In this document: positions 1 to 22,408 of the stretch, one piece after another | Numbering within the stretch: the first letter of the stretch is position 1 | How the letters are laid out: each line of letters begins with the position of its first letter | Source of the DNA: Cheilinus undulatus | Taxonomy: Eukaryota > Chordata > Actinopteri > Labriformes > Labridae | Assembly (NCBI RefSeq): GCF_018320785.1 | Contig: NC_054871.1 | Span: 17,542,339 to 17,606,338 of the forward strand | DNA length: 64,000 nucleotides | Direction: 5' to 3' | Made by a program: the position numbers and the translations under genes | The notes under the pieces: model-generated | The model's database searches: none | Seen by the model: only the letters and a program-made list of their open reading frames with translations | What the model was told of the DNA's origin: nothing

Positions 1-63
1 TTTGGCTTTTAGTGTGAAAAATATCACTCAATGCTTGACAAGTGCAATGATTCCTCTAAAGTA

Positions 64-1283
64 CACTGTATTGCCAAAAGTATTCACTCACCCATCCAAA
101 TAATTGAAATCAGGTGTTCAGTCACTTCCATGGCCACAGGTGTATAAAATCAAGCACCTAGGCATGCAGACTGTTTCTACAAACATTTGTGAAAGAATGG
201 GTTGCTCTCAGGAGCTCAGTGAATTCCAGCGTGGTACTGTGATAGGACGCCACCTGTGCAACAAGTCCAGTCGTGAAATTTCCTCACTTCTAAATATTCC
301 ACAGTCAACTGTCAGTGGTGTTATAACAATGTGGAAGCAATTGGGAACGACAGCAACTCAACCACAAAGTGGTAGGCCACATAAAATGATGGATGCTGAG
401 GTACATAGTGCACAGAGTTTGCCAACTTTCTGCAGTCGTTCGCTACAGACCTCCAAACTTCATGTGGCCTTCAGATTAGTTCATGAACAGTGCATAGAGA
501 GCTTCATGGAATGGGTTTCCATGGCCAAGCAGCTGCATCCAAGCCATACATCAACAAGTGCAATGCAAAGCATCAGATGCAGTGGTGTAAAGCACACCGC
601 CACTGGACTCTAGAGCAGTGGAGACGTCTTCTCTGGAGTGTCGAATTGCGCTTCTCCATCTGGCAATGTGATGGATGAGTCTGGGTTTGGCGGTTGCAAG
701 GAGAACGGTGCTTGTCTGACTGCATTGCACCAAGTGTAAAGTTTGGTGGAGGGGGGATTATGGTGTGGGCTTGTTTTTCAGGAGCTGGGCTTGGCCCCTC
801 AGTTCCAGTGAAAGGAGCTCTGAATGCTTCAGCATACCAAGAGATTATGGACAATTCCATGCTCCCAACTTTGTGGGAACAGTTTGGGGATGGCCCTTTC
901 CTGTTCCAGCATGACTGTGTACCAGTGCACAAAGCAAGGTCCATAAAGACATGGAGGAGAGAGTTTGGTGTGGATGAACTTGACTGGCCTGCACAGAGTC
1001 CTGACCTCAACCTGATAGAACACCTTAGAGTAGAAACTGAGAGCCAGGCCTTCTCATCCAACATCAGTGTGTGACCTCACAAATATGCTTCTGGAAGAAT
1101 GGTCAAAAAATCCCATAAACACACTCCTAAACCTTGTGGAAAGCCTTCCCAGAAGAGTTGAAGCTGTTCTAGCTGCAAAGGGTGGGCTGACATCATATTA
1201 AACCATATGGATTAAGAATGGGATGTCACTCAAATTCATATGTAAGTCAAGGCAGGTGAGCGAATACTTTTGGCAATATAGTG
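64..1283 (+). mobile_element. Tc1-like DNA transposon, copy 1 (dead)
   Basis: A complete but inactive Tc1/mariner-superfamily element of 1220 bp. The left end begins CACTGTATTGCCAAAAG. The right end, read on the other strand, begins CACTATATTGCCAAAAG, so the terminal inverted repeats are still clear. Both ends are flanked by TA (62-63 and 1284-1285), the expected target duplication. Nearly all of the interior is a decayed transposase gene on the plus strand. A close relative sits at 34.7-36.5 kb. Confidence 0.93.
164..1201 (+). pseudogene. Tc1-like transposase pseudogene, copy 1
   Basis: This is the remnant of a DD34E transposase, read across several frames from MQTVSTNICERMG to a terminal AAKGGLTSY-stop. 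The N-terminal helix-turn-helix part (SREISSLLNIPQSTVSG) and the catalytic core ([40 protein letters not shown]) are easy to recognise. It cannot make an active enzyme. A 14-base deletion after residue ~75, between two GGA triplets, shifts the frame. The first catalytic Asp is replaced (SVELRF instead of SDE.RF), a stop follows WQCDG, and about ten bases are missing after IEHL. The second Asp and the final Glu are still present. Confidence 0.9.
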
Positions 1284-3782
1284 TATACTTAAGTATAAAA
1301 GAGAAAGTTGAGATTTTAAAAGTATACCAAAAGTAAATGTAGTTAGTTACTTTCCACCACAACGTGAGTCTGGTCTGGTCGACAGTCCTGCCTGTTAGAG
1401 GGAAGGTTTATGTCGCCACTGTAACGGGGCTACATACTGCTAATGCTGTGTTCATGGTAATTAACGCTGGTCTTTATTATAACACTAATGATAAATGCTG
1501 GTCTATTATAGGACACGACAGAGAGAACTGTCTAGACCTGAGATAGCATCCCTGGTTCAAGTCATGTGGCTCCTCTCCTGCTTTCTTGTCAATGTTTTTG
1601 ATTCTGACCACTTACCTCATCTATATCTATTAATAAAGGCATAAAAAGCCCCAAAAGTATATATTTAAAGAAGAAGTATGACTTGTTTGTCAAAAAAGGA
1701 AAATAGGAAAATAAGAAGCAAAATTAAACCATTGTTAGATATTTGCTCCTTTTTGACTATGGAATAGAGACTCAGCTCTTGTCTTTTTTATTTAATATCC
1801 ATTTCAGAACCATAAACCCAGTTACCAAAAGATGCATGGATCAGGTGTCTACTTTCCTCCAGGGTAGGACCTTCAGACTCCCGATTTAACCCCTTAAAGC
1901 CTGTTAACTCAAATAATAGCCAGAAAATTCTCATTTTTTATAACTAAAATATTTATTTAACCTTCTACCCAAATCCAAAAAAGAAAAATTTCCATAAAAT
2001 TACAGATATATTTTTTGTATCACATTTGATCAATTAAGGTGTTTTCGGCAACCAATGATCCACTGTAGGGCTTTTTTATAATTTTTCTGCCTATATTAAA
2101 GTGATTTTTAAGTGATTTATTGATATTTTGATTCAATAGAGGTCCCATAAGAGTGTGAATCAAATATGATACAATAGGCATTTAGGGGTTAAACTGTTCC
2201 ACACACCTTTTTATACTTCCATAATCCATGCTGTAAATATTACAAATCATTAAAATAGTTGAGAATCACTGTAAAACAACTGAAAAGATCAAAGTATTAA
2301 AAGTTTAACAAAATCATTTTTTAATCCAGAGAAAAAGACAAATCAATGTTTTCTAAAGACAGTGCTTTCCAGTGATTCAGAGTCTAAGTAACTGTATAAA
2401 GAACCTTTATTATTCTTATAACTTTTCCCATTTTTTTGTTTTCTTCAACATACACATGTCAGTACATTCCTACTTGTGTTTTTCATTGCTAAATATGCAG
2501 AAATTTTGCACCCAGGGGCTGAAAGCACATTTTAAACACTTAAAAAGAAAAAAATGTTGATGTTTTCACTCATGTCTTTTTTATTTCCCTCTGTGTTGTT
2601 GATCTGGCTCAGGGGTTAGGTACGACTGCAGCGTGGTAGAGACAGAAGCTGCAGTCAAAGCTCCTGTGATCGGGTGCACACTTCATAGAGACCAGCAGAT
2701 GGAGGGGAGTGAGGAGCTGCGTGCTTCCTGAAGGTTTAGCAAGAACTGAGAGGTTACACTCCGCCAGTACAAAGCTGACCTGTCACACGCTGAAACATGC
2801 CGTATATCAATGCAGAGGAGCTTCCTGTTTATGTACCTTGCTGAGCACAGCTATCAGAGGAAAAGAGAGAGGGATTACAGATGAAAATATGTAGGAAATG
2901 TTGTTTCTCTCCTCACAAACTGAGGCGAACTTGGAGGCAGCATGCATGTGACGCCTGCATTTCCATTTTCGACGCTAATTAATGTTGTTTTGTCTTCAAA
3001 GTGCAATTGCAACCGGTAGTTATCAGCCTTGATCGCAGCATTTTCAAGGTTGTCTAGATGTGAGCCGTCACACAACAAATACCTGTAAATATAGAATAGA
3101 GGCACAACAGAGAAATAAAGGAATTATGGCGTGTGGAGAGCTCTGTGCAAATGAGGCACAGGAGAGATAGTCTGTGATGAAGTGAAGGACAAAACTGACA
3201 AAACAGCATATTATTTCTGCCTAGATCACTCTATAAAATCTGCTTTTCTGTTTTTGTGTGTCGGTGTTGTGTTGTGAACATGTATGTGTTTGTGTTTCTT
3301 CTCTTGGCAAACACCCAGCACTGAGGATCTCTCCACCTGCTCTGTATCAACCAGCAGGGCAGGCCTCAGTCTCTTACTCACACATCACAGTTTAGCTGTG
3401 TCTCATTCACATCGTCACCCCCCTGACATCTGCCCGTGTGCGTCTGTGTGCGTGTCCCAGTGCTGGTGTGAGTTTGTGTTAGCGGGCCGGGTTTGTGTGT
3501 GAGGTGAGGTTAAATAGGCGCCTAGCAATGAGAGGTGGGAACTGAAGCGGAACTGGCAGAATATCACACTCACATACAAGCAGTGACCATAGATACAACA
3601 CCATCAGAGCAGCATGTAAACTGCAGGTGTGGCCTATGCCTCAGTGATCATCCCGTACTTTGTTTTGACCCGGTCGCCTGTCACTGTGTGGGTATAATGT
3701 GTGGTAATGCCTGTATAGCTGTGTCTGTTCTGCCTGCACACACGCATCCTGGGGATTTTATTTGCTGGTTTTTCATCACACT
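1284..3782. other. AT-rich intergenic DNA, no gene recognised
   Basis: About 2.5 kb without a convincing coding region. Open frames here are short and have no family resemblance. A decayed SINE tail occupies ~1547-1690. The stretch 2600-3750 is less AT-rich and has GT-rich patches but shows no splice-bounded exon that I can identify. Confidence 0.5.
1547..1690 (+). repeat. decayed tRNA-derived SINE, 3' part
   Basis: The sequence has a box-B-like CCCTGGTTCAAGTC, then a CT-rich body with CTCCTGCTTTCTTGTC, and a tail with AATAAAGGCATAAAAAGCCCC. This is the layout of the SINE copies seen elsewhere in this window (5.1, 29.4, 31.6 and 60.7 kb). The tRNA-like head is missing or too decayed to see. 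Confidence 0.55.
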
Positions 3783-4110
3783 GATGATATGATGTATTAA
3801 AATATGATGTAACTCAATGTGGTACAATAACATATGATGCAAATTATGTAATACAATGTGATACGGTACAACTTAAACTATGATATGATAAACCATGTGA
3901 GATGATAATATACTATAATGACTATACCATACCACATGACGTGGCAGGCCATGGTAATATATGAAACAATATGGTATTATTAAAGCATGTGATACAATAT
4001 GACAATACAACATGATAGGATACCATATGGCGAAGCACCCCATGACATGACAGGGCACATTATACCACAATAGCATACCAAATAATGTGATGTACAAGGT
4101 TACTACAGTT

Positions 4111-4635
4111 GACTAAAACTAACTAAATAACTAAAAACTGAAACTAAACAAAAAATAAGCTTTACTAAAAGTAAACTAAAACTGTTCTGACAAAACTGAC
4201 TAAAATTGAATTAAATTAGGGATAAAATTGCCTTAGTTTTAGTCTTTGACAGCAGCAAACTGACATGTATGCCAAAACCTGGAGAGACATTAAATGCCAG
4301 ATTTGACTGAAGGATAATAAATGTAATAGTTAGTTTAGGTCTTTAGTTATCAGATATCATATTTGAATAAATAAAATGAAAGGCCTGTTTGAAAGTGTTT
4401 TTAAAACATTGTGTGATATTAACTGTTTCTGACCCTTTTGGGTCTCACCACTGACAAGTAAATCATATTGCTGTTAAGACCAACACTAATACTAATAAAA
4501 ACTCAACTAAAACAAAGCTTTTTTTGAAAAATAAAAATTCAGTTAACAAAAGTGGCAGTAAAAAATAATTTAAACTGAACTAAAAGTGAAAACAAAAATA
4601 AAACTTAATTTAAAAAGCCTAATGAAAACTACTAC
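4111..4635. repeat. interspersed repeat with CTAAAACTA-rich ends
   Basis: This roughly 525-bp block interrupts the pentanucleotide array. Both ends are rich in variants of ACTAAAACTAA (CTAAAACTAACTAAATAAC on the left; CTCAACTAAAAC and CTGAACTAAAAG on the right), and the middle is unrelated unique-looking sequence. Repeats with ends of this type are common in fish genomes and are usually non-autonomous DNA elements. I could not define exact ends or a target duplication. Confidence 0.5.
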
Positions 4636-5101
4636 AACCGATGTGACATGATTGTCATGATATGTGATACAGTAAAGAATGATAGTATGATAAAATAAAA
4701 AATAAACAAAACAAAACAACACTATGCAACATGACGGATACAATATGGCACTGAACGGCATGATATGATAGATATGATATGCTACAATACGATTTTATAC
4801 AATATGACTCAACCCACATAAAATGATATTACATAATACGATACGGTAAAAGCCGTAATGATACGACTATATCGTATGATACTAAACCATACACCATCCC
4901 ATACCACATGATAGGATGCCATATAATATGGCATGTCATGACTTTACATGGCAAATTATTTCCATTTTACGATATAATACAATATGGCACTGCATACGCA
5001 GTACAATATGGTAGGATATGATACAATATCATACGGTAGTACATCATATGACAGCATGAAATAACCTGGCACATAATACTATGACAAGAAATGATACCAT
5101 A

Positions 5102-5241
5102 GGGGGTGCAGGTGGCCTAGTGGTTCAAGGCATGCAGGTCCGCATGTCTACCCTTCACTCTCTCATCCCTGTTTTGGACTCTTTCCACTGTTGTTTACCA
5201 CAATAAAGTTACAAAAAGCAAAATAAGTCCTAAAAAAAAAA
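5102..5241 (+). repeat. tRNA-derived SINE with target duplication
   Basis: The head GGGGGTGCAGGTGGCCTAG resembles a tRNA 5' half with box A. The body is CT-rich, followed by ACAATAAAG and an A-rich tail. Flanks match: AAGAAATGATACCATAG before and AAGAAAATGATACAATAG after, a target duplication of about 17 bp drawn from the pentanucleotide array. The box B region appears deleted, so this copy would not be transcribed well by RNA polymerase III. Confidence 0.8.
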
Positions 5242-5945
5242 AGAAAATGATACAATAGGATATGATGCAACAAGATTCAATATGATACAGTACAGTATGA
5301 TATGATGCAAACCATGGTATTAGCTGTGATACAATACACTATGCAGCATGACAGATACAATATGGCACCACATGGCACGATACAATATGTTAGGATACGA
5401 TAAAATGCGATACAACACAACATGGTATGAGAAAGCAGGATATGATATGATATGATAAGACACAGCTGGATATGATACACTATGATACCATATGACAAGA
5501 CAGGATACAATATGACAAAGTACAGCATGACAGTATGATACAGTAGAAAACCACACCACAGGGTATGTTACAGTACGATACGACACAGCATGATACAAAA
5601 TGGTACAATACGTTACAATACAGTATGGTAAAACATAACGCAATATGATACAATACCATGTGTTACGATACAATATGATATGATACGATAAAATGCAATA
5701 TGATATAATACGATAGGATGTGTCATTATGCAACGCGTTACGAAGCCAGACAACATGACGTGGCTCATTATGCTGTGATACAATACAACACAATACGATG
5801 CAAACCATGTGCAATGAGTTGATACTATACAGCATGATAAGATATAATACAACATGACATTACATAAGACAATAGGATATGATACTTCACATTACCTTAT
5901 GTCACCTACGATATCAAACAATAAGATATGATACACTTAGTGCCC

Positions 5946-8865
5946 CCACCCGTCTAGACCCCCAGACTCTTCTCTACACTGCAGGTAGACAGAGTATCAA
6001 CCTGACTGATTGCTGATGCAGATATTTGGCATTTAGCTGATTCTGCATTTTGTTTCACAGATAATCAAATCGCCCGAGATCAATTAATCAAGATCAATTC
6101 AAATGTGTGTTACTTTCTGTCCCTCTGGTTTTGTTTTTACTCCCTACAGTCTCACCTAATGTTCCGCTCACAACACTGTTTGACTGGCTTGATGTCACAG
6201 AACTATCAGCCAATCAGCACTGAGGCCTGGGTGGCACTGACACAGAGAGTGTACAGCCCCACTTCCTGTTTGCTCTGTGCTGTTTCTCGTGTTGACAGAT
6301 GTAGTGCTAAATTGTCCTTAATTTTTTTTAACATGCAGTTTTACTTTTGTGACTAGAAGTAAATTTTGTTTGTCAGAACAAATGCATATCAGTTCCAAAT
6401 ATCGTTAAGTGGTCACACACACTTCTAGTAAGTGGTACTGAAAAACCACAATCAGTCAACCCTTACTACTCTACACCTGCTTCAAAAAATATTGCACACT
6501 TTTGTGCCTGAGCAACATCAGCTGATTCTTGAGATTTCCCATAATCAATTGATGTAGACTGACAGGTAGAGAGATCCTTGAAGTCTGAAAGACACTTTCT
6601 GACAGTCTTGCTTTCACATTGTCCTAGGCTGTGGATGTCACAAGTTTGATCCTGTTAAAAATCATACTCCAGTTACTTTGCAAACAAACACATTTGATCA
6701 CATCAACTCAAAGGAAAATCATATTTGTGCAGGAATAGGTGTTTTATCCATGTATTTAAATTGAATTTAACCCAAAGAAATTAAAAATACCAAAAGCATT
6801 TTTAAATACTGTGTAAATATACCCATGTCTTAATCATTAATGAAACTGTTCAGGCCAGGTTCAGATTAATCTCAGATGTTTTTTTAAGTCTACAGCAAGC
6901 ATACGGCAATGTCATATCTGTTCTTGTACAGTCATGGAAAACACACAGCCTGTCTTTTAACAAGATGAGAGAATAAGAGCAGCAGAGAAGACTGTCACTT
7001 GATAGAAGCTCTTCTTTCTTACCTGCTGAGGTCCCTGCAGACAGACAAAACTGTACTTTGGCATTGTGATTAATGCAAAAGTCAACGGTGCACATTACAT
7101 TGGGTTTATCTCACCATAATACAGCAGGATTTTATGGTTTCACAGAAGGGTAATAAACAAAAAGCACATGTGATTTCTAAAAGCCTGAAGGCATCAAGGA
7201 ACAGCTGCATTTTTATTTTTTCTACACTTGAATATTTTTGTGAATTAATTAAAAAGATACAGAAGAAGAGGAAGGAATCCTGTTTGTAGTGCAGGTTTCT
7301 GATCATGCATTCCTTATACAATACATACATTATATACATTATAGCGATAAGATGCATTCCAGCTCAGCAGCAAACCCCTGAAATTCTTGTCAACACAGGG
7401 TCATGATGATGTCCAGAATTTTATTTATCCTGCGGCTCCAGACCTGAGCAGCAGGCCTGGCTGTGTTTGTTTGTTTGTGTTTCTGCTTCGGTCCCTGCTT
7501 CCTGTAGCTCTGCGGCGTCAACCCGCCCACCGTCGTCCTTCCCATTAGACCCAGGGAAAACACGGCCCTGCTGCCACAGCCGTGCAGAAATCCCGGCGAC
7601 TGAGGTTTCCTCTTTGGACTGACTGAAGTGTTTGCTGTTTCCCACATTGTTGGAATTCAACACCAGCCTGTTTACTGGTCCCCATGTGGCTTCAGTCTCC
7701 CTCCCTCTTCCTCTCTTTTTTTTTCATCTCCAGACATACCTTTTTTTAAAAACATGGCATACATAGTGTTTGCTCCTAGTAATAAGACAGCATGCTACCA
7801 AAGAAATAACTGAAATGACCATGTTTTTGCAAGCAAATTATATTGTTCATTATGGCTACGTGCGTGTTATATAACCCTCTGGTTAACAAAAGGTGATGAT
7901 TTTTTTGTAACCTTTTTTTACTGTGCAAATGTGCAGCCACACTCCTAAATCTCTCTTTGTGTTGCAGAAATTAAGAGAGTTGTTATATACTATTAATAGT
8001 CTAATCTATTGGAGCATTTTTCCACTGTGAGGTACTGTATGGGCATCAGGGACATTGTTTCATATACTTTATTTTGCAGCTGACAGTGAATCATACAATG
8101 AATCAAAGGAAATCATATACATCTCAAGGAAAAATGTTAACAAGATGATGAGGCGCATGCAAAATGAGAATCTCTTCTTTATCTTTGTTTCCTTTTTTTT
8201 TTCCACTTCCTTCCCTCGGTACAGCCAGATGGCAAAGCTCCAGCTCTGCAGTCCTCTTCATACACTCATCATATTTGATGGGCGTCCTGCTGCCGAGTTT
8301 CAAGGAGGCCATGTGTTTACGAAATGACACTTGTGACAAAAGAAAACTTCTATTTAGCAAGCCGATTCTGGGGAGGGGGTGCATGGGGGCAGCAGCATGT
8401 GTGAACAAAGATTTAGGGAATGTGCTGTATATATTGAGCTTACATAGGAGCAAGGCAGTGGGAGAAAGGTTGTGTATGTGTTGTGTGTTCGTACCAGTGA
8501 AATCCATACCGTCTCTGTTTCACACTGCTGGATTCGTGTTGTCTTTTAATCACATCCTGTACCTTTTTCATCTTTTTACTATGTTACAATACAGTTTATA
8601 AGCATTTTTGTGCATGTACCATTCCAATACAGTGAGTTTTCCACATTAATGTCACAAATATTATACATTGTTAGCTCTCCTTCGCTGATGGATTCAGTCA
8701 GGACAAACTTTTGTTTAAAAAAAATCATTTGTTGTACATTTTGCTACTGAAACAGGTTTCATTTGTTGTTTATTTGTTCTCAATATGCTATCATCTTATC
8801 CTAATATTGTCTTTGTCTTCAATGGTGAGGAATTCCCATCAAAGTTTTCCCCTTCTCTTAATACT
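5946..8865. other. intergenic DNA 3' of lhx9, no gene recognised
   Basis: Nearly 3 kb with only short, unconvincing open frames. A GC-richer patch at about 7410-7660 is open in two overlapping minus-strand frames but has no recognisable domain. The end nearest 8.86 kb is the likely 3' untranslated region and flank of the lhx9 alternative terminal exon. Confidence 0.45.
8769..8774 (-). terminator. lhx9: candidate poly(A) signal for lhx9 short isoform
   Basis: A canonical AATAAA on the minus strand lies about 92 bases after the stop codon of the alternative terminal exon. Position and orientation suit a very short 3' untranslated region. Only the hexamer supports it. Confidence 0.35.
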
Positions 8866-8922
8866 TTAGGGAATTTTCAAACGTCGGGATGTATGGCTGT
8901 AATGCCCCAAGATTTGTTCTCC
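8866..8922 (-). CDS. lhx9: lhx9 alternative terminal exon (homeodomain-truncating)
   Basis: Read on the minus strand, an acceptor (CTTTCAG) is followed by 18 codons, GEQILGHYSHTSRRLKIP, and a stop. This matches almost exactly the alternative C-terminus I recall for mammalian LHX9 alpha-type isoforms, which replaces the last homeodomain helix. Exon 4 ends after a whole codon and this exon begins with one, so the splice 12088 to 8922 keeps frame and would give a 333-residue protein with both LIM domains but no recognition helix. Such a form could titrate LIM cofactors without binding DNA (known idea for the family, inferred here). The exon lies about 2.35 kb beyond the normal stop codon, so choice between isoforms means choosing between two terminal exons and two poly(A) sites. 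Confidence 0.9.
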   Translation of the reverse strand, partial: GEQILGHYSHTSRRLKIP

Positions 8923-11271
8923 CTGAAAGAAACGATAGAGTAAGAATATATTAACTACAGAGCAACCTGGCTTTACTGGGTCTGCATTTAACTCTTAATT
9001 CATTTTAGGCTTACCAATACGCTATGCATAAAAAATATATATACTATAAATGTATATATCAATATATGCTTTGAAGCATTCCTTTGATTTAAATTTTAAA
9101 GCCATGTTCATGCATTAAAAAGCAAATTCATATTTTTGACTGCAGGGTTTAGATGCAAATCCATGGGGCATTACGTTAAAAACCATAAACATCATAAAAT
9201 AGGAAATAGAAATTAAAAATGGAGGCAAAAATGAGGACGTTTAACTGGTCATTAATAACTGAAAGCTTTCTCATTTGTTGATGTGGTAAACAAAAATAGT
9301 ATTTAGGATAAAAAACACAAATAATGGCAAGTGCAATGAAAAATAAAACTCATTTAAAGCAAAGTATTTTTATTCACACAAATTTAATAAGATATATAAC
9401 AACCGTTTGGTCCATAAATATTTAAGGGGAAATAGTTTCTATACACCATCTTTATCAAGAAACAGGGAAACATGGACAATCTTGATAGAACACTTACTGT
9501 ACTCAACTATTAACACGAAGATCAATATATAAGGTTCTTGGATTACCCAACTATATCTGAAAGAGTGCACAAATGCTTTCTATGACATCGCTGCCCCCTT
9601 TTTAACAGGATACACCATAAAAAGATCTTCGGAAATAAGATGCAAAACAGTACAAAACTAGTGAGGCGTCAAAAGGATGTGAATCAGTTAACAAAGAACA
9701 CAGAGATCCTGAATTTCACAAACTTTCTCCCAAGTTATAGCATAAGGCACATAGTAGAACTGAGTTAGGCATCTACTTCAATAAGTAGATTTAGAGAACC
9801 ACTTTGTTCCACAATAGAACAAATTGTGACGCTCACGATGAAATGTATCAACTCCATTTAAGATTTCTTTCTTTTCTCTCTATCTTTCAGCCAGAAGAAA
9901 CATGTTTTTGGTCTGTTCAGTGGCAAGTGTCATTAAAGAAAGTATAAATATGGCCAAAACGGAGAACACATGGACAATGATTTCCCACTGGCTGCCTCTA
10001 AACAAACGACTTCGCCTTTCTGAGGTCATTTTAATGTTCGTATCAGCTCTACAAATCTAATCTGCAACGTCGCAACCATTTAATTTCTACTCCTTTCCCT
10101 TTTAAAATCACATTGTTACCCTGAGCAACATGATATAAACAATAATGCACTTTTCACTGGGCAGTATATTGTCACTGTGCAATCGGATTTAGCTGTGGAT
10201 CTATGGATGCGTTTTGACTGTGGTTAATCTATGAGGCCAGCAAATCTGAAAAAGTGCTCTGTCATGAAAACAATCAAGACAACAGTGTCTGTTAACTGTT
10301 TTCCTTTTTGAATTTCTCTCACTGATTTGTGATTTCCAGATAAATTCTCTCAATGTGACTGCATTACACGTTGAACAGTTACCACTGTACAGAATGTGGA
10401 ATTTGCTTGTTTTTTTCCCTCTCAATCACATTAGATATAATAATGAAGTCAAAAACATATGGAGGTTAGCATCAACCTGCCATATAAGCTGTGATGGTTG
10501 GATCCTAGTAATGAAATTTAGACGTTTTTCCATCTGACTCTGTGAGATATTTTAATGCCTGATTCCATCCAACTCAGTCTTAAAGACTGAAACATTCGGA
10601 AATAATTAAAGCCTGTTTTCTGGAGTTACCCATATACAGAACATTCGACAAGTTTATTTTCCAAATTATTCCAAAACAGAAACAAAAACAAAATCTTTAA
10701 ATTTGATAGTGCGAACACAGTGCATACATATACAAGTTTCTGAGGGCAAAATATTCATGATAGTTTAAAGTTTACCAATTAAGCATAAATTAGGAAGGGC
10801 TCGTTTTAGCATAATTCAATACAAATGTACAAATAAAGTCAAATCAAATATTAAATCTAGTTTCCAGACAAGCTTCAAGTTAAGTTTTTTTTTTTCTTTC
10901 CCCGATGAATTGGTTGTGGAATCCATGAAAATTTTCTAATCCGTTCGACTTCAAAAATGTCCCATTCAAAATCAATCTCTGCAAACTGTAACTCATCTAC
11001 AGACACGGCTGCCATGTGGTTTCAGATGCTACACATTAAAATGATTCCATGTGTTTTAATGTGGTCGCTGCTGTTCTTGCTCTTGTTGTTCTTGTTTGTG
11101 TACACAGTACAGCACTTTCTGTTCCAAGGAGCTGTCTCTGGTAGATTTAAAGGTGTCACTTAAAAAAATAAAATGTAGATTGACAAAAGAAAAACCAAAA
11201 AAAAAAAAAAAAACAAAACAAAGAAAACAAATCAATCAGATAAAAAAAATCAGTCTTCTAGAGATAGCTTG
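8923..11271 (-). other. lhx9: lhx9 3' untranslated region and flank
   Basis: This AT-rich stretch follows the main stop codon. It contains candidate poly(A) hexamers on the minus strand at 10653-10658 and 9369-9374, so the main transcript would have an untranslated region of about 0.6 or 1.9 kb. No other coding exon is visible. Confidence 0.55.
9369..9374 (-). terminator. lhx9: candidate poly(A) signal for main lhx9 transcript
   Basis: Minus-strand AATAAA in GTGTGAATAAAAATAC, about 1.9 kb after the main stop and before the alternative exon. A second hexamer at 10653-10658 is an equal candidate. Transcript ends cannot be decided from sequence alone. Confidence 0.35.
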
Positions 11272-11526
11272 TTAGAAAAGGTTTGTCAAGGTAGTTTGTG
11301 AAGGGCTCCCCGAATCATGGCTGTCCAAACTAGAGGTGACGGAGGTCACTACAGTGATAGAGGGGTTTGTCAGGTCTGTTAGTGTGGCCGCGCTGGAGGG
11401 GGGGGTCAGGGCCCCACTGTCAGATGAGGGCGGAGGGAGTGAGGTGCCATCAGCCTTATCAACACCTCCATTCTCCTGTCGCAAAACGTTCCTTCTGAAT
11501 TTGGCTCTTGCGTTTTGGAACCAAAC
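11272..11526 (-). CDS. lhx9: lhx9 exon 5: homeodomain helix 3 and C-terminus
   Basis: After the acceptor TTTGCAG the exon opens with VWFQNARAKFRRN, the DNA-recognition helix of the homeodomain. It continues through a Ser/Thr/Pro-rich tail (LTPPSSAATLTDLTN) to SPSQTTLTNLF and a TAA stop. The reading frame also runs open upstream of the splice site for a few codons, but the junction with exon 4 (LQ then VW) is exact. Confidence 0.97.
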   Translation of the reverse strand, partial: VWFQNARAKFRRNVLRQENGGVDKADGTSLPPPSSDSGALTPPSSAATLTDLTNPSITVVTSVTSSLDSHDSGSPSQTTLTNLF

Positions 11527-14500
11527 CTGCAAACCAATCCCAGTGTGGCTTTTACTTTTTGTGTTTACGATTAATTTTTAAAAAGATATCAAGACATCAA
11601 GTTATCACAGCTTTTAAGGTATCAAGTTGCCCTTTTCTTAGGTCTATAAATGTTTACGTGTCAATTTTCAATACACTTTTGAGCTTATGGGGCAGATAAT
11701 GAAACAGTTAGCTCCTGAACACTGAATATAATAATGTGAATTTAATTGCAAATTAAATTAATAAAGTTTAATATAAAAGAGAGCTGAATGACAACCTCTT
11801 TCATTTCACAAATAAAAGAACAAGTGCACTCTTATAATTCAACATTTCTCCTGCAGTCTTACACTTAGGTATAACTTCTCTCCTGTCTTTCCTTTAAGAC
11901 AAAAATAGCATTTCAGAATCTACAAAAAATCAGATAAAACCCCGTGGATATACATCTAAAGACTAAATGGACCAAACAAAACCAAAAGTATGACTTGAAT
12001 GATAATTCTGGTGTGAAATGAGAGGGAAGGGTGCAGACACAGGTATGGGGGTGATCGGATAAAAAGAGGAAATGGCTCTCAGCTTACCTGAAGAACTCTC
12101 TTAGTCAGGCCTGTTTTCTGGGCCAGCTGCTTTAAGTCCTTGGCATCCGGGTTGTGGTTGATGGCAAAGTAGGATTTCATTGTCCGCAGCTGATGGTGCT
12201 TGAAGGAGGTCCGCATGCGTTTGGTCTTCTGTGTTGGAGGGTAAGCTTGCTGGTCCCTGTCCAAGTGATCCGTGTCGTTCTCGTTACAGCCTGAGAGGGC
12301 AGAGAGCAGAGCACAGGAAGGGGTCAGAGGCCGGGAGGGATGACAGGAAAACATTTTCAGCTCTAAGCAGTCTCCTTTTCTAAAAATGTGTCCACATTGA
12401 ATTTTTCTACCCAAAGAAAAAAAAAGAAAAAGCTATGATTAAGTAAGTGGCAATGAAGCAGCTCACACCACTACTATCCAGATAGCATTATTCATAAACA
12501 GGAAACTGCTTCAATCTTATTAATTTAAATAGCTTTGAAGCTTAAGTTTAAACACAATAATGTTGTCAGAGCTGTCACAATACTAGAATTTTAACATTTA
12601 TGTGACAAAGGTAGAAAAAAAATATCAATGCCTGATTTGATACTGAAAGCATCATGACCAGATTTGGTCATTTCTTGCTTTTAATCAGCAAAAATTGCAT
12701 ACAAACTCCTGCACACTGCACTCTTTCACATTGGCAACGTATTTCTGCAATTTCAACATTGCTTTCTCTTGTGGCATATTTGGTTGAAAATCTGACTTTA
12801 AATTAATCACTTTTAAAAGCTTCCATTCTCTATGACACTACTGATGATTAAAATGACAGATGTGTCATTATTTAACATGTGGTATCAGAAAGTATCAAAG
12901 TATTCACAATTTAAACCATCCTACAAGCTACTTGTTAGGTTTTTAAGGGAACAATTGTAAGTTCAAGGGCATTTTATTAAAAACTGACTTGTAATAAGCA
13001 TAAATTTTCCATTGGCTTGCTGTTTAATAGATTTCTAACAGTCCAGAAAATCCTTGAAAGAACACACAGTCTTATCTCTCCTTTGTAATAACTGTCACAC
13101 ATCTGAGACTGTAGTTATTGCAGTTTAAACATAATGGGGATTTTTCTTGTTTGTTTCTGAAGCAAAATGATATATTTTTACCAGCACTGGGAGCAAGCTC
13201 AATAATTTCTGCTTGTGTTTGCAAAGACTAATCGTCCTAATGGGCCTCATTTTTCAATCGCTAACAACTGCAAATGTAAAACACTTAAGAGATAGTGAAA
13301 TGCAAAAATGGATCCACTACATTAAAAGCATTTTTACCTCAACAATCCAGCTGAAACTTTAAATAGCTGCATGTATGGGTATAACACTTTACACTTCACA
13401 GTTGCATCGTTTTATGCATTCTGTTTTTTTGGATTATTTTTACTGCCATGATGTAGAAAATTCCAACGCAAAATAATACTACCTAGTTAAATAATGACTA
13501 ATATTAACAAAAAAAATACCATTCATAATTTTGCACTGATTTTGCTTCGTGGGTCATGGTAGTGGGCCATAAAAGGTATATTAATTATGCAAAAGAGAGA
13601 GAATTTAGCCTGCAAAAAAATGCAAAAAGATTTCTTAAATATACAGCAAGTACCTTTGATTGTATTGTCTCTTTTAAACCTAACCTTGTATAGTTATTCT
13701 AAACAAAGTATAAAATTAATCTAACCAACATTTCAACATGAGGATTCTGCAGAAAATAAATGTCTTGGTTATACTGAATAGAGTAGATAGAGAATTAATA
13801 AACTGGACTTGATATTTTTCTGTTTTATGCACTGGTAGGTGCTATGTCTTGAATTATGTGTTTTTGTTACATGAGAAATCTTCTTGCTACATTCATACAC
13901 GCCATAAATAATCAATCACTGACATGTGTGTTTTTCTGTTCCAGCCCTTCCCTGGATTGTGTTTCGCTTGATATTACCCACTAGGGGTCTCTGTATCCAA
14001 ACAAGACCAAACTTTACAGAGTGGTGTGCAATACTCAGTGGACCCACACCTTTTCCCCTGTGAGAACAAACATGAATGTGCTCGCTAAAGCAGAAACAAA
14101 ACCTCAAACAAAACCTCAGTCTATTTGTCAGGAATATGAGCCTCCTGATGTGCAGAACGATACAATAACCTCAGCAGTCTGACAGTATTGTGAGGAGGTT
14201 ATAACAGGGGTGTTTGTGATATTACAGCACAGGAAAGGGGAGACAAGAATATACAGGGATAGTCTTCCATGTTTTTCCTATGGATTTCCATTTTATACTA
14301 CTCATTATTTTTTTGTTTAAATGCAGATTTGAGCATTTTAAGTCAAAAAATTACAATAACCTGAGCAGTCTGACAGTACTGTGAGGAGAGTAAAACAGGG
14401 GTGTTTGTGAATTTACAGCACAGGAAAGGAGAGACGGATATACAAGGATAGTCTTCCTTATTTTTCCTACGGATTTCCATTTCATACTATTCATTATTTT

Positions 14501-17500: not shown

Positions 17501-18844
17501 TGCGTGGAAGGCTGCGCGCGCGCGTGCGTGCGTGTATGCGTCACACTGGCTACGAAATGTAGGTGAATGAAGAACCTTCATTTTTCTTACCTGTAGTAGT
17601 CCTCCTTGCAATAGATACTCCCATCCTTGGCAAAACACGTTAGCTCCGACTCCAGCGCGAGTTTACATTCACAGCATTTAAGACACCGCAGGTGCCACTG
17701 TTTGTCCACGGCCAGGAGGTAGTATCTATCCGAAATCTTTCCACCACAGCCGGCACACAGAGCAGGCTTCTCCGGGCTCATGGAAGGCATGGTCTGAGGC
17801 AGGGAGAGAGAGGAGAGCTGAAGGAGACCGTAGTTGGAGGTCTTACAGAGACCACTGGGGAAGTGTTGGTGAGTTTATGTTATGATGAAGGCAATGAAAT
17901 TCATGTTTGTTTTTCATCTGTCAAGACGAGGCCTTCAACAGAGACTTTAACACGATACTAAACAAATGCAGACTCGGTGTGGTCACAGGCCCTCCCGAAG
18001 AAAGGAGAAGCCACAATCTATGACACAGCTCTGAAATAAACTCCCCTTCCAGGAGGATTTAAAGATACCACTAAGATGCATTTTCTGTTTTTTAAAACTG
18101 AACTCTAGGTTAAGACAAGGAAACAAAATATAGAAAATTATATGTCCATTTAGAAATGAAAGCTACTTGTTTAATAAAATTGAAAAAAAAAAAAACAGAA
18201 GATATAGGCTGATGATAATAAAAAAAAAATAAAAATACTGATCCTGCTTGTTTTTTCTTTTATGTGTAGTGATGCAGTATCCAAACTAGAATGACTAAAT
18301 CTGCTATAAAACAAAATTTTATGGGTGCAATGCAAGAAAATTATCTCAAGAAAATTGTTGTGATTTTACTGTAATTTGCATTAAGATGCAAATCAATTTG
18401 TTGCCAGTTATTTTTTAATTTTTAAGCAAATTCATAAACTTTGAAAACTATGATATACAAACTTTTAATTATAAATTCTCTATTCCACTGATATTTTTGT
18501 TTTGTTAGACTCATTTGTTCCATTACTGGATAAGAAGTAGGCTAACTCCTCACTTGTCTCCTTCTCGCCCCAGGCAGCCGTAAACTTCTCCACAGAGGAG
18601 CACCACAGTCGTCGCTAGGATAAATTCTAACACACATTTAAACACAGGTCCACCGAACTCTTACCGATTCTCTCCCGTTCAGCTGCATGCCCTTCGCCAG
18701 GCGCGACTCCGTCTTCGACCTCCTCTCCATCTCCTCCATGATCCCTTGGATGTGATCCCCGGAGATCCCGTGGAAAAGCATGGCTCCCGGTCCTGGACGC
18801 AACGTGCAACTGCCTGGCTCTGTCTTGCAGCCCACAACTTCCAT
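11272..18844 (-). CDS. lhx9: LIM/homeobox protein Lhx9, full coding model
   Basis: Coding exons join as 18844-18665, 17793-17591, 16492-16134, 12290-12088 and 11526-11272, 1200 bases in all, giving 399 residues and a stop. The protein is a nuclear LIM-homeodomain transcription factor. LIM1 is at ~73-125 (C73, C76, H94, C97, C100, C103, C122, D125) and LIM2 at ~135-188 (C135, C138, H157, C160, C163, C166, C185, H188). A basic stretch KGRPRKRKS follows at 227-235, and the homeodomain lies at ~270-329 with Q319 and N320 at positions 50 and 51. Start and tail (MEVVGCK.., ..TTLTNLF) fit LHX9 rather than its paralogue LHX2. In vertebrates it acts in gonad, limb, forebrain and retina development. 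All junctions obey GT..AG and no lesion is seen. Confidence 0.97.
11527..12087 (-). other. lhx9: lhx9 intron 4
   Basis: A 561-bp AT-rich intron that splits the homeodomain just before helix 3. If it were retained, translation would add Val-Ser and stop. No repeat or further exon is apparent in it. Confidence 0.85.
12088..12290 (-). CDS. lhx9: lhx9 exon 4: homeodomain helices 1 and 2
   Basis: The acceptor CCCTCTCAG and the donor CAG|GTAAG bound 203 bases that complete Gly248 and encode CNENDTDHLDRDQQAYPP, then TKRMRTSFKHHQLRTMKSY and on to LTKRVLQ (residues 249-315). This is the acidic linker and the first two homeodomain helices, nearly invariant between LHX2 and LHX9. The exon ends on a codon boundary, which allows in-frame use of either terminal exon. 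Confidence 0.97.
12571..12910. repeat. decayed dispersed repeat, copy in lhx9 intron 3
   Basis: It begins GCTGTCACAATACTAGAATTTTA and ends with a GATTAAAATGACAGA..GTATCAGAAAGTATC block. The same two landmarks, in the same order, occur at 47.64-48.0 kb, so this is a dispersed repeat and not unique sequence. Its class is unclear; fish repeats with this start are often non-autonomous DNA transposons. Confidence 0.5.
14161..14537. repeat. two-copy tandem duplication (period 191 bp)
   Basis: Unit 1 (14161-14351) and unit 2 (14352-14537) share long matching runs: TACAATAACC.GAGCAG start, ACAGGGGTGTTTGTGA, ACAGCACAGGAAAGG, GATAGTCTTCC and TTTAAATGCAGATTTGAG. The copies differ by scattered substitutions and small indels, so the duplication is not recent. 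It lies in lhx9 intron 3. Confidence 0.9.
14990..15620. promoter_or_regulatory. candidate intronic regulatory block of lhx9
   Basis: This block is CpG-richer than its surroundings and dense in homeodomain-type cores. It contains two copies of CAATTAACG in close succession (about 15039-15061), several ATTA/TTAATTA sites and AGGTCAAATTTCGATCAA. It is non-repetitive. An enhancer or minor promoter is an inference from composition only. Confidence 0.35.
16134..16492 (-). CDS. lhx9: lhx9 exon 3: LIM2 domain and nuclear localisation region
   Basis: Minus-strand acceptor TTCCAG, donor G|GTAGGG. It encodes residues 128-247: RFSVQRCARCHLGISASEM with all eight zinc ligands of LIM2, then a linker, a Gly-rich stretch (AAKGGGLTLPYFNGTG) and the basic KGRPRKRKS. 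The linker reads QGPDYHP where other vertebrate LHX9 proteins have about one residue fewer. LIM domains bind LDB/CLIM cofactors in this family. A plus-strand frame through the same DNA is an antisense shadow. Confidence 0.97.
16493..17590 (-). other. lhx9: lhx9 intron 2
   Basis: A 1.1-kb AT-rich intron between the two LIM exons. Its distal third (about 17200-17420) is repeat-free and contains a palindromic homeodomain site. A CG/GT-rich run (GCGCGCGCGCGTGCGTGCG) lies at about 17512-17535. Confidence 0.75.
17352..17362. promoter_or_regulatory. P3-type paired homeodomain site in lhx9 intron 2
   Basis: TAATTGGATTA is a TAAT-N3-ATTA palindrome, the arrangement bound by dimers of paired-class homeodomains (Rx, Otx, Vsx type). 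It stands in a repeat-free stretch. Function is inferred. Confidence 0.3.
17591..17793 (-). CDS. lhx9: lhx9 exon 2: LIM1 domain
   Basis: Minus-strand acceptor CTGCCTCAG, donor CAG|GTAAG. It encodes Thr61, then MPSMSPEKPALCAGCGGKIS through YCKEDYY, i.e. the complete first LIM domain with ligands C73, C76, H94, C97, C100, C103, C122 and D125. The second Met (62) could serve as a downstream start, but the upstream exon joins in frame. The exon ends two bases into Arg128. Confidence 0.97.
17794..18664 (-). other. lhx9: lhx9 intron 1
   Basis: An 871-bp AT-rich intron. It contains A-rich runs at 18183-18235 and no recognisable repeat or exon. Confidence 0.8.
18665..18844 (-). CDS. lhx9: lhx9 exon 1: N-terminus
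   Basis: It encodes residues 1-60, MEVVGCKTEPGSCTLRPGPG, then AMLFHGISGDHIQGIMEEM and on to QLNGRES, ending at donor TCG|GTAAG. The start was chosen because MEVVGCK matches the long vertebrate LHX9 N-terminus. The frame is open further upstream, but the extra residues look unlike the family. An internal Met22 (MLFHG) is the usual junction with alternative first exons, preceded here by a possible AG acceptor at 18785-18784. Confidence 0.95.
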
Positions 18845-22245: not shown

Positions 22246-22408
22246 CTGAGGTTGAGTGAGATCCTTGTGTCGCGTGCAGGCTGGGCAGATCCGGACTGCG
22301 CGCGCGGTGCAGAGGAGAGGCAGGAGGAGACGCTGCCGGTAGATGGGGGCTGTTCCTCGTTTCTGAGCTCACACTTGGAGTTGGAGCGTCAATTAAAACA
22401 CAAGACAT
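22246..22408 (-). CDS. candidate alternative first exon of lhx9
   Basis: On the minus strand an ATG at 22408 opens a 54-codon frame (MSCVLIDAPTPSVSSE.., ending ..QGSHSTS) that stops at a strong donor, CTCAG|GTAAG. The exon ends one base into a codon. Joining it to a possible acceptor at 18783 gives Ala-MLFHG in frame, the same phase as the alternative LHX9 first exon I recall from mammals (ending LEAA before MLFHG). However, the residues do not resemble that exon, the ATG context is weak (T at -3), and the acceptor lacks a pyrimidine tract. It could equally be a 5' untranslated exon. Confidence 0.3.

Follow-up and report, generated by a model that had tools for sequence, protein, structure and literature searches.

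Mouse Lhx9-alpha (Lhx9a, with its Lhx9ab variants) was reportedly described by Failli 2000 and Molle 2004. The C-terminal tails of the mouse and chick proteins have been printed as GEQILGHYSQTSRRLKIP and GEQIMGHYSQTSRRLKIP, respectively, in a study that also found fish, bird and reptile members of the isoform by BLAST and detected the variant protein in mouse and chick with a specific antibody (PMC9310833; papers cited here by PMC number were available in part, and statements about them apply to those parts). According to the same source, Lhx9a failed to bind in vitro to a known LIM-HD site (reported there from its reference 8), and in a culture assay neural differentiation was not lowered, and was raised by Lhx9a alone, so that a dominant-negative action of the isoform is disputed. 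Lhx9-alpha (330 amino acids) and Lhx9-beta have been described as expressed in the embryonic mouse heart, where the form with an intact homeodomain is missing or present at extremely low levels; over-expressed together, LHX9-alpha and ISL1 co-precipitate (PMC2447832).

The window, the whole stretch of 64,000 nucleotides analyzed here, comes from the genome of Cheilinus undulatus and contains lhx9 on the minus strand, with the following features.

18665..18844, minus strand: lhx9 coding exon 1, from the ATG to the donor GTAAGAG (splice-site reading, in-frame join)
17591..17793, minus strand: exon 2, 203 bp, LIM1 (in-frame join; length equal to that of zebrafish exon 2, PMC7969587)
16134..16492, minus strand: exon 3, 359 bp, LIM2 (in-frame join and domain match)
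12088..12290, minus strand: exon 4, 203 bp, homeodomain up to KRVLQ, common to both isoforms (donor GTAAGC, phase 0)
11272..11526, minus strand: coding part of the canonical last exon (VWFQNARAKF to TNLF, stop), with the remaining homeodomain helix 3 and the canonical C-terminus
10658, minus strand: AATAAA, another candidate signal of the canonical 3'UTR (motif only)
9369..9374, minus strand: AATAAA, possibly the last poly(A) signal of the canonical 3'UTR (motif only)
8923..8932, minus strand: acceptor with pyrimidine tract, TTTCTTTCAG, adjoining the alternative exon (sequence reading)
8866..8922, minus strand: coding part of the alternative last exon (GEQILGHYSHTSRRLKIP, stop), the Lhx9-alpha tail (translation, splice sites, mouse match)
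8769..8774, minus strand: AATAAA, first candidate poly(A) signal for the alternative transcript (motif only)

The first four coding exons (18844-18665, 17793-17591, 16492-16134 and 12290-12088) are in frame when joined. Joining exon 4 to 11526 gives a 399-amino-acid protein that ends in TNLF, and joining it to 8922 gives a predicted 333-amino-acid protein that ends in GEQILGHYSHTSRRLKIP. The donor of exon 4 reads CTTCAG/GTAAGC in phase 0, with 12088 as the final exon base, and the acceptor of the alternative exon, TTTCTTTCAG/GGAGAAC, is a good match to an acceptor and is in phase with that donor. Unspliced, exon 4 runs into VS-stop directly after KRVLQ, and a splice is therefore needed for the tail. 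The AATAAA motifs at 10658 and 9374 lie between exon 4 and the pyrimidine-tract acceptor of the alternative exon. The preliminary description of this locus had proposed an 18-codon exon 3' of the main stop codon, spliced from 12088; its coordinates, length and donor are correct, as the canonical stop ends at 11272 and the exon occupies 8922-8866.

At the 5' end of the gene, translation in six frames revealed no first exon of the mouse Lhx9-beta type (MLNGTT or fragments thereof), and primers for the beta first exon and for the 3'UTRs have no good match within the window and were excluded from the primer comparisons below. About 3.4 kb upstream of exon 1, at 22246-22408 on the minus strand, an open frame beginning MSCVLIDAPTPSVSS is followed by CTCAG/GTAAGT and is a possible further 5' exon. 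Elsewhere in the window, 31-base inverted repeats at 62-1285 (94% complementary, 1162 bases apart) resemble DNA transposon ends, and a long degenerate run of ATCGTAT/ATCATAT-like words was noticed by eye at about 3790-5950, partly caught as tandem repeats. Between 24000 and 64000, ten long stop-to-stop frames (of 86 at 75 amino acids or more, and not strictly the ten longest) gave 0 Pfam matches, and no further gene was identified from them.

The two predicted proteins differ in their homeodomains. The alpha form is called helix-3-less here on limits of homeodomain helix 3 that we assume, WFxN being lost. The Pfam Homeodomain family (PF00046) aligns over positions 1-57 of 57 in the canonical form versus only 1-45 in the alpha form, in which two LIM stretches are retained; this agrees with the earlier assignment of the exon to an LHX9 isoform that lacks helix 3. 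Among solved structures, the full homeodomain is matched best by that of LHX9 (2dmq). The predicted product is likely a 333-amino-acid LIM protein without homeodomain helix 3 that modulates LIM-cofactor complexes.

Judged from its sequence, this alternative fish exon at 8922-8866 is orthologous to the terminal exon published for Lhx9-alpha (Lhx9ab). The exon has already been described and fish members of the isoform are already in print, which makes the find itself an ordinary one. Comparison with the mouse tail GEQILGHYSQTSRRLKIP (printed in PMC9310833) reveals 17 identical residues out of 18 and a stop at the same place, the exception being residue 10 (His in C. undulatus, Gln in mouse). The expectation of a match with the mammalian tail at all but one position, and of an exon shared by mammals and fish, was thus borne out. 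A search with the 18 tail residues through the 1.17 Gb genome to which the window belongs gave a single location, that in the window (E 3.5e-5), and no second one at E up to 0.001, although the counts are lower bounds and diverged copies may escape such a search. A 26-base piece of printed mouse sequence has one occurrence in the window and appears in 0 of 100 shuffles. A chance open reading frame was rejected as an explanation because the tail has a single genomic place and the 26-base piece is absent from the shuffles. The exact exon 26-mer has 0 matches in viral_contigs, no solved structure matches the tail up to E 1, and the forward-strand frames across 8801-9000, when translated, yielded nothing persuasive. 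Across the splice junction the spliced form of the window reads G/GGAGAAC, the same as the mouse qPCR primer of PMC3708810.

Evidence for use of the exon in teleosts comes from zebrafish. In an lhx9 RT-PCR assay, a 939-bp cDNA product was obtained at 24-96 hpf, and a product of about 736 bp when the 203-bp exon 2 was skipped (PMC7969587). The authors refer to the product as Lhx9 mRNA covering exons 1 to 5, and the term 'isoform' occurs 0 times in the main text as available. The reverse primer of this assay falls in the alternative exon, although its four 3'-terminal bases match the last bases of exon 4 and also those of the intron. Calculated from the window, the zebrafish amplicon would be 948 bp on spliced alpha cDNA and 9925 bp on a genomic template, with the forward primer placed only by its TGCAAG start (7 of 20 mismatches, tied with another place). 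These data provide good but indirect support for teleost use of the alternative exon, and suggest that the teleost alpha isoform has probably already been amplified in zebrafish. They also bear on the idea that the exon is a dead relic, which resembles the mammalian exon and is unused in fish. Fish and mammals have been separated for more than 400 million years. Such a relic is hardly credible: a zebrafish cDNA was amplified with a primer in the exon (PMC7969587), the frame is open, and this reading was rejected on the intact splice sites and the near-identity to mouse.

The conservation of the exon was also probed at the nucleotide level, using as comparison letters the primers printed in papers for mouse, human, chick, zebrafish and Astyanax. 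Mouse exon DNA was assembled from four oligonucleotides (PMC9310833, PMC3708810, PMC2447832, PMC9561852) that cover 55 of the 57 bases, and the whole-length comparison of the exon is with mouse only. The mouse cloning primer alpha-FL-XhoI-R (PMC2447832) was left out, since it is printed as CTCGAGTAAGGG, which conflicts at the stop codon with two other mouse primers; outside the stop codon it agrees with the other mouse primers by eye. No usable lhx9 sequence was found in the available parts of PMC10657563, PMC6876112, PMC8507291, PMC3473035, PMC6402656, PMC5438563 and PMC6464512. Window and mouse exon are identical at 54 of the 55 compared bases, and the only difference is at base 30, the third base of codon 10, where the window has CAT (His) and the printed mouse peptide has Gln, a replacement. 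The chick primer has 1 difference in 24 bases, a Leu/Met replacement, which leaves 0 silent differences in 7 codons plus 1 replacement. The zebrafish primer covers 18 exon bases with 0 differences.

Silent differences were found at 0 of 17 same-residue degenerate codons in the exon (mouse) versus 22 of 48 in the remaining exons of lhx9 (mouse and human; Fisher p 2.6e-4), a small sample from short printed primers in which the 17 and 48 codons are treated as independent. A mouse-only control gave 12 silent differences in 30 codons (p 0.0018). The mouse primer HD1054F was dropped from the control for its ambiguous placement (7 versus 8 mismatches); with this primer kept, the control is 23/51 (p 2.9e-4), or 13/33 for mouse only (p 0.0019). 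One control primer was also used on chick, which if anything biases the control toward conservation. Among teleosts, 0 of 6 codons in the zebrafish alternative exon (the seventh codon of the primer falls in exon 4) differ silently versus 6 of 24 in other exons, a comparison too small to add weight. That control is a hand count without stop and ambiguous rows (zebrafish RT-F and WISH-F, Astyanax e1e2F), and becomes 11/35 when all rows and the stop codon are counted.

Because silent differences number 0 of 17 versus 22 of 48, the results point to constraint on the nucleotides themselves: within this small sample, the exon is conserved at the nucleotide level, whether or not the protein is selected as well. 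The preliminary description had concluded from the near-identity that the truncated protein is under selection. That inference does not follow, as silent change is also absent where letters were compared, and the check proposed in that description, silent against replacement change, finds replacements only when run on mouse, chick and zebrafish letters (His/Gln against mouse, Leu/Met against chick). Strong purifying selection on the peptide alone, with the tail as a functional motif and the DNA kept only as its code, is accordingly improbable. It agrees with the frame, the stop and the 17 of 18 residues kept between mouse and C. undulatus, and mouse and chick do produce the protein (PMC9310833), yet under this view the exon should show silent differences about as often as other parts of lhx9, and those observed are 0 of 17 with 1 replacement (mouse) and 0 of 7 with 1 (chick). 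Furthermore, replacements affect 1 of 18 codons in the exon and 6 of 57 in the control primers (HD1054F excluded), which is no clear deficit; as a protein, the tail is not clearly more conserved than the rest of lhx9. Preservation of the frame and stop fits protein selection without proving it, and the peptide may matter too. Silent conservation by itself does not tell whether selection acts on a peptide or on a signal for splicing or regulation.

Conserved regulatory DNA is common at developmental regulator genes. The 57 bases could thus be kept mainly as an enhancer or other regulatory element of the lhx9 3' region, with the splice form incidental, an explanation we consider slightly less probable still than selection on the peptide alone. 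The lack of silent change wherever letters were compared is what such an element would leave, but the splice junction, frame and stop are conserved as well, and mouse and chick make both the transcript and the protein of the isoform (PMC9310833). In addition, the mouse and chick variant 3'UTR primers have no convincing match in the window downstream of the exon, and no ultraconserved-element report on LHX9 describes the exon among the matches listed (titles and abstract starts). Predicted RNA folding of the exon is unremarkable on three stretches (z -0.88, -1.22 and -1.12), and therefore no structure was found that accounts for the silent constraint; known RNA families gave 0 Rfam matches in the window at the gathering score. 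A TGCATG at 9114 on the minus strand, about 190 bases upstream of the alternative exon, is the sole copy in 8600-12100, a single site that is not significant. We take TGCATG to be an RBFOX-type word.

Placement of printed primers on the exon also has consequences for published reagents. The mouse 'Lhx9' expression plasmid electroporated in an axon-guidance study (PMC9561852) was made with a reverse cloning primer that has the core TTAGGGAATTTTCAAACGTCGGGA, corresponding to the end of the alpha frame, stop codon included. Because the printed primer ends at the alpha stop codon, this gain-of-function plasmid probably encodes the helix-3-less Lhx9 form; no isoform statement for it was noticed in the available part of PMC9561852. 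In chick spinal cord, the plasmid increased ipsilateral axons and strongly decreased commissural ones (3 embryos versus 5 controls), and in mouse retina and cortex it acted in the same direction as an Lhx2 plasmid, more weakly (PMC9561852). Loss of Lhx2 and Lhx9 causes midline-crossing defects (cited in PMC9561852). If the plasmid is alpha, the spinal result resembles Lhx2/Lhx9 loss and would fit interference, and the retina and cortex results, being in step with Lhx2, speak against plain interference. The plasmid, if alpha, would bear directly on the question of whether alpha is inert, dominant-negative or active. The mouse qPCR 'Lhx9' reverse primer of PMC3708810 falls in the alternative exon, as does the zebrafish reverse primer of PMC7969587, and these assays should consequently report alpha-type transcripts rather than canonical ones. 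Neither the silent-site result nor the isoform identity of the reagents in PMC7969587, PMC9561852 and PMC3708810 was found in print among the matches listed in one open library, and both are modestly new.

Taken together, these observations make it very probable that the locus carries the fish Lhx9-alpha terminal exon, used by alternative last-exon choice to make an LMO-like, helix-3-less protein, with part of the constraint acting on nucleotides. In the proposed mechanism, the 399-amino-acid LIM-homeodomain factor would result when the donor of exon 4 at 12087 is spliced to 11526, where the canonical last exon starts. Alternatively, the canonical exon and its poly(A) signals (AATAAA at 10658 and 9374) would be bypassed in C. 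undulatus and exon 4 joined to the distal last exon at 8922. The resulting alpha product would keep the two LIM domains, have a homeodomain truncated close to where helix 3 begins, and finish with the 18-residue tail. From the published mouse work, it most likely lacks DNA binding but still enters LIM-cofactor and LIM-HD (LDB-type) complexes via its LIM domains and alters their output, an LMO-like mechanism. Since no silent change is seen where letters were compared, at least part of the constraint lies on the nucleotides, most likely through RNA control of last-exon choice and less likely through an overlapping enhancer. We somewhat favor the further view that the bases of the exon serve twice, encoding the isoform tail and forming a nucleotide signal, most likely for last-exon choice, that has hardly altered since the fish-mammal split. 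If this view is right, Lhx9-alpha is a regulated output of its own and not a by-product, and the zebrafish knock-down RT-PCR, the mouse genital-ridge qPCR and the axon-laterality gain of function measured or expressed the helix-3-less form, unstated in the available parts of those papers. Without silent change, splicing or regulatory constraint deserves testing ahead of the claim of a selected peptide.

Comparison with known systems places the C. undulatus isoform closest to mouse Lhx9-alpha, with which it shares 17 of 18 tail residues, the junction after KRVLQ and the loss of helix 3, at 330 amino acids in mouse versus 333 predicted here. It differs from the mouse form by the Gln to His change at tail residue 10 and in being known here from genomic sequence alone. 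Chick Lhx9ab (PMC9310833) has the same tail, with RT-PCR and antibody evidence, but has Met at tail residue 5 and Gln at residue 10, in contrast to Leu and His here. LMO proteins are similar in that they present LIM domains without a DNA-binding homeodomain and have a proposed competition for LDB/CLIM (argued in PMC9310833 and PMC2447832). Unlike LMO proteins, alpha retains 45 of 57 positions of the homeodomain and ends in a tail of its own, and its dominant-negative action is disputed. Finally, a truncated-homeodomain variant of Lhx8 (mentioned in PMC9310833) is likewise the product of a LIM-HD gene whose splice form cuts the homeodomain, although it belongs to another gene.
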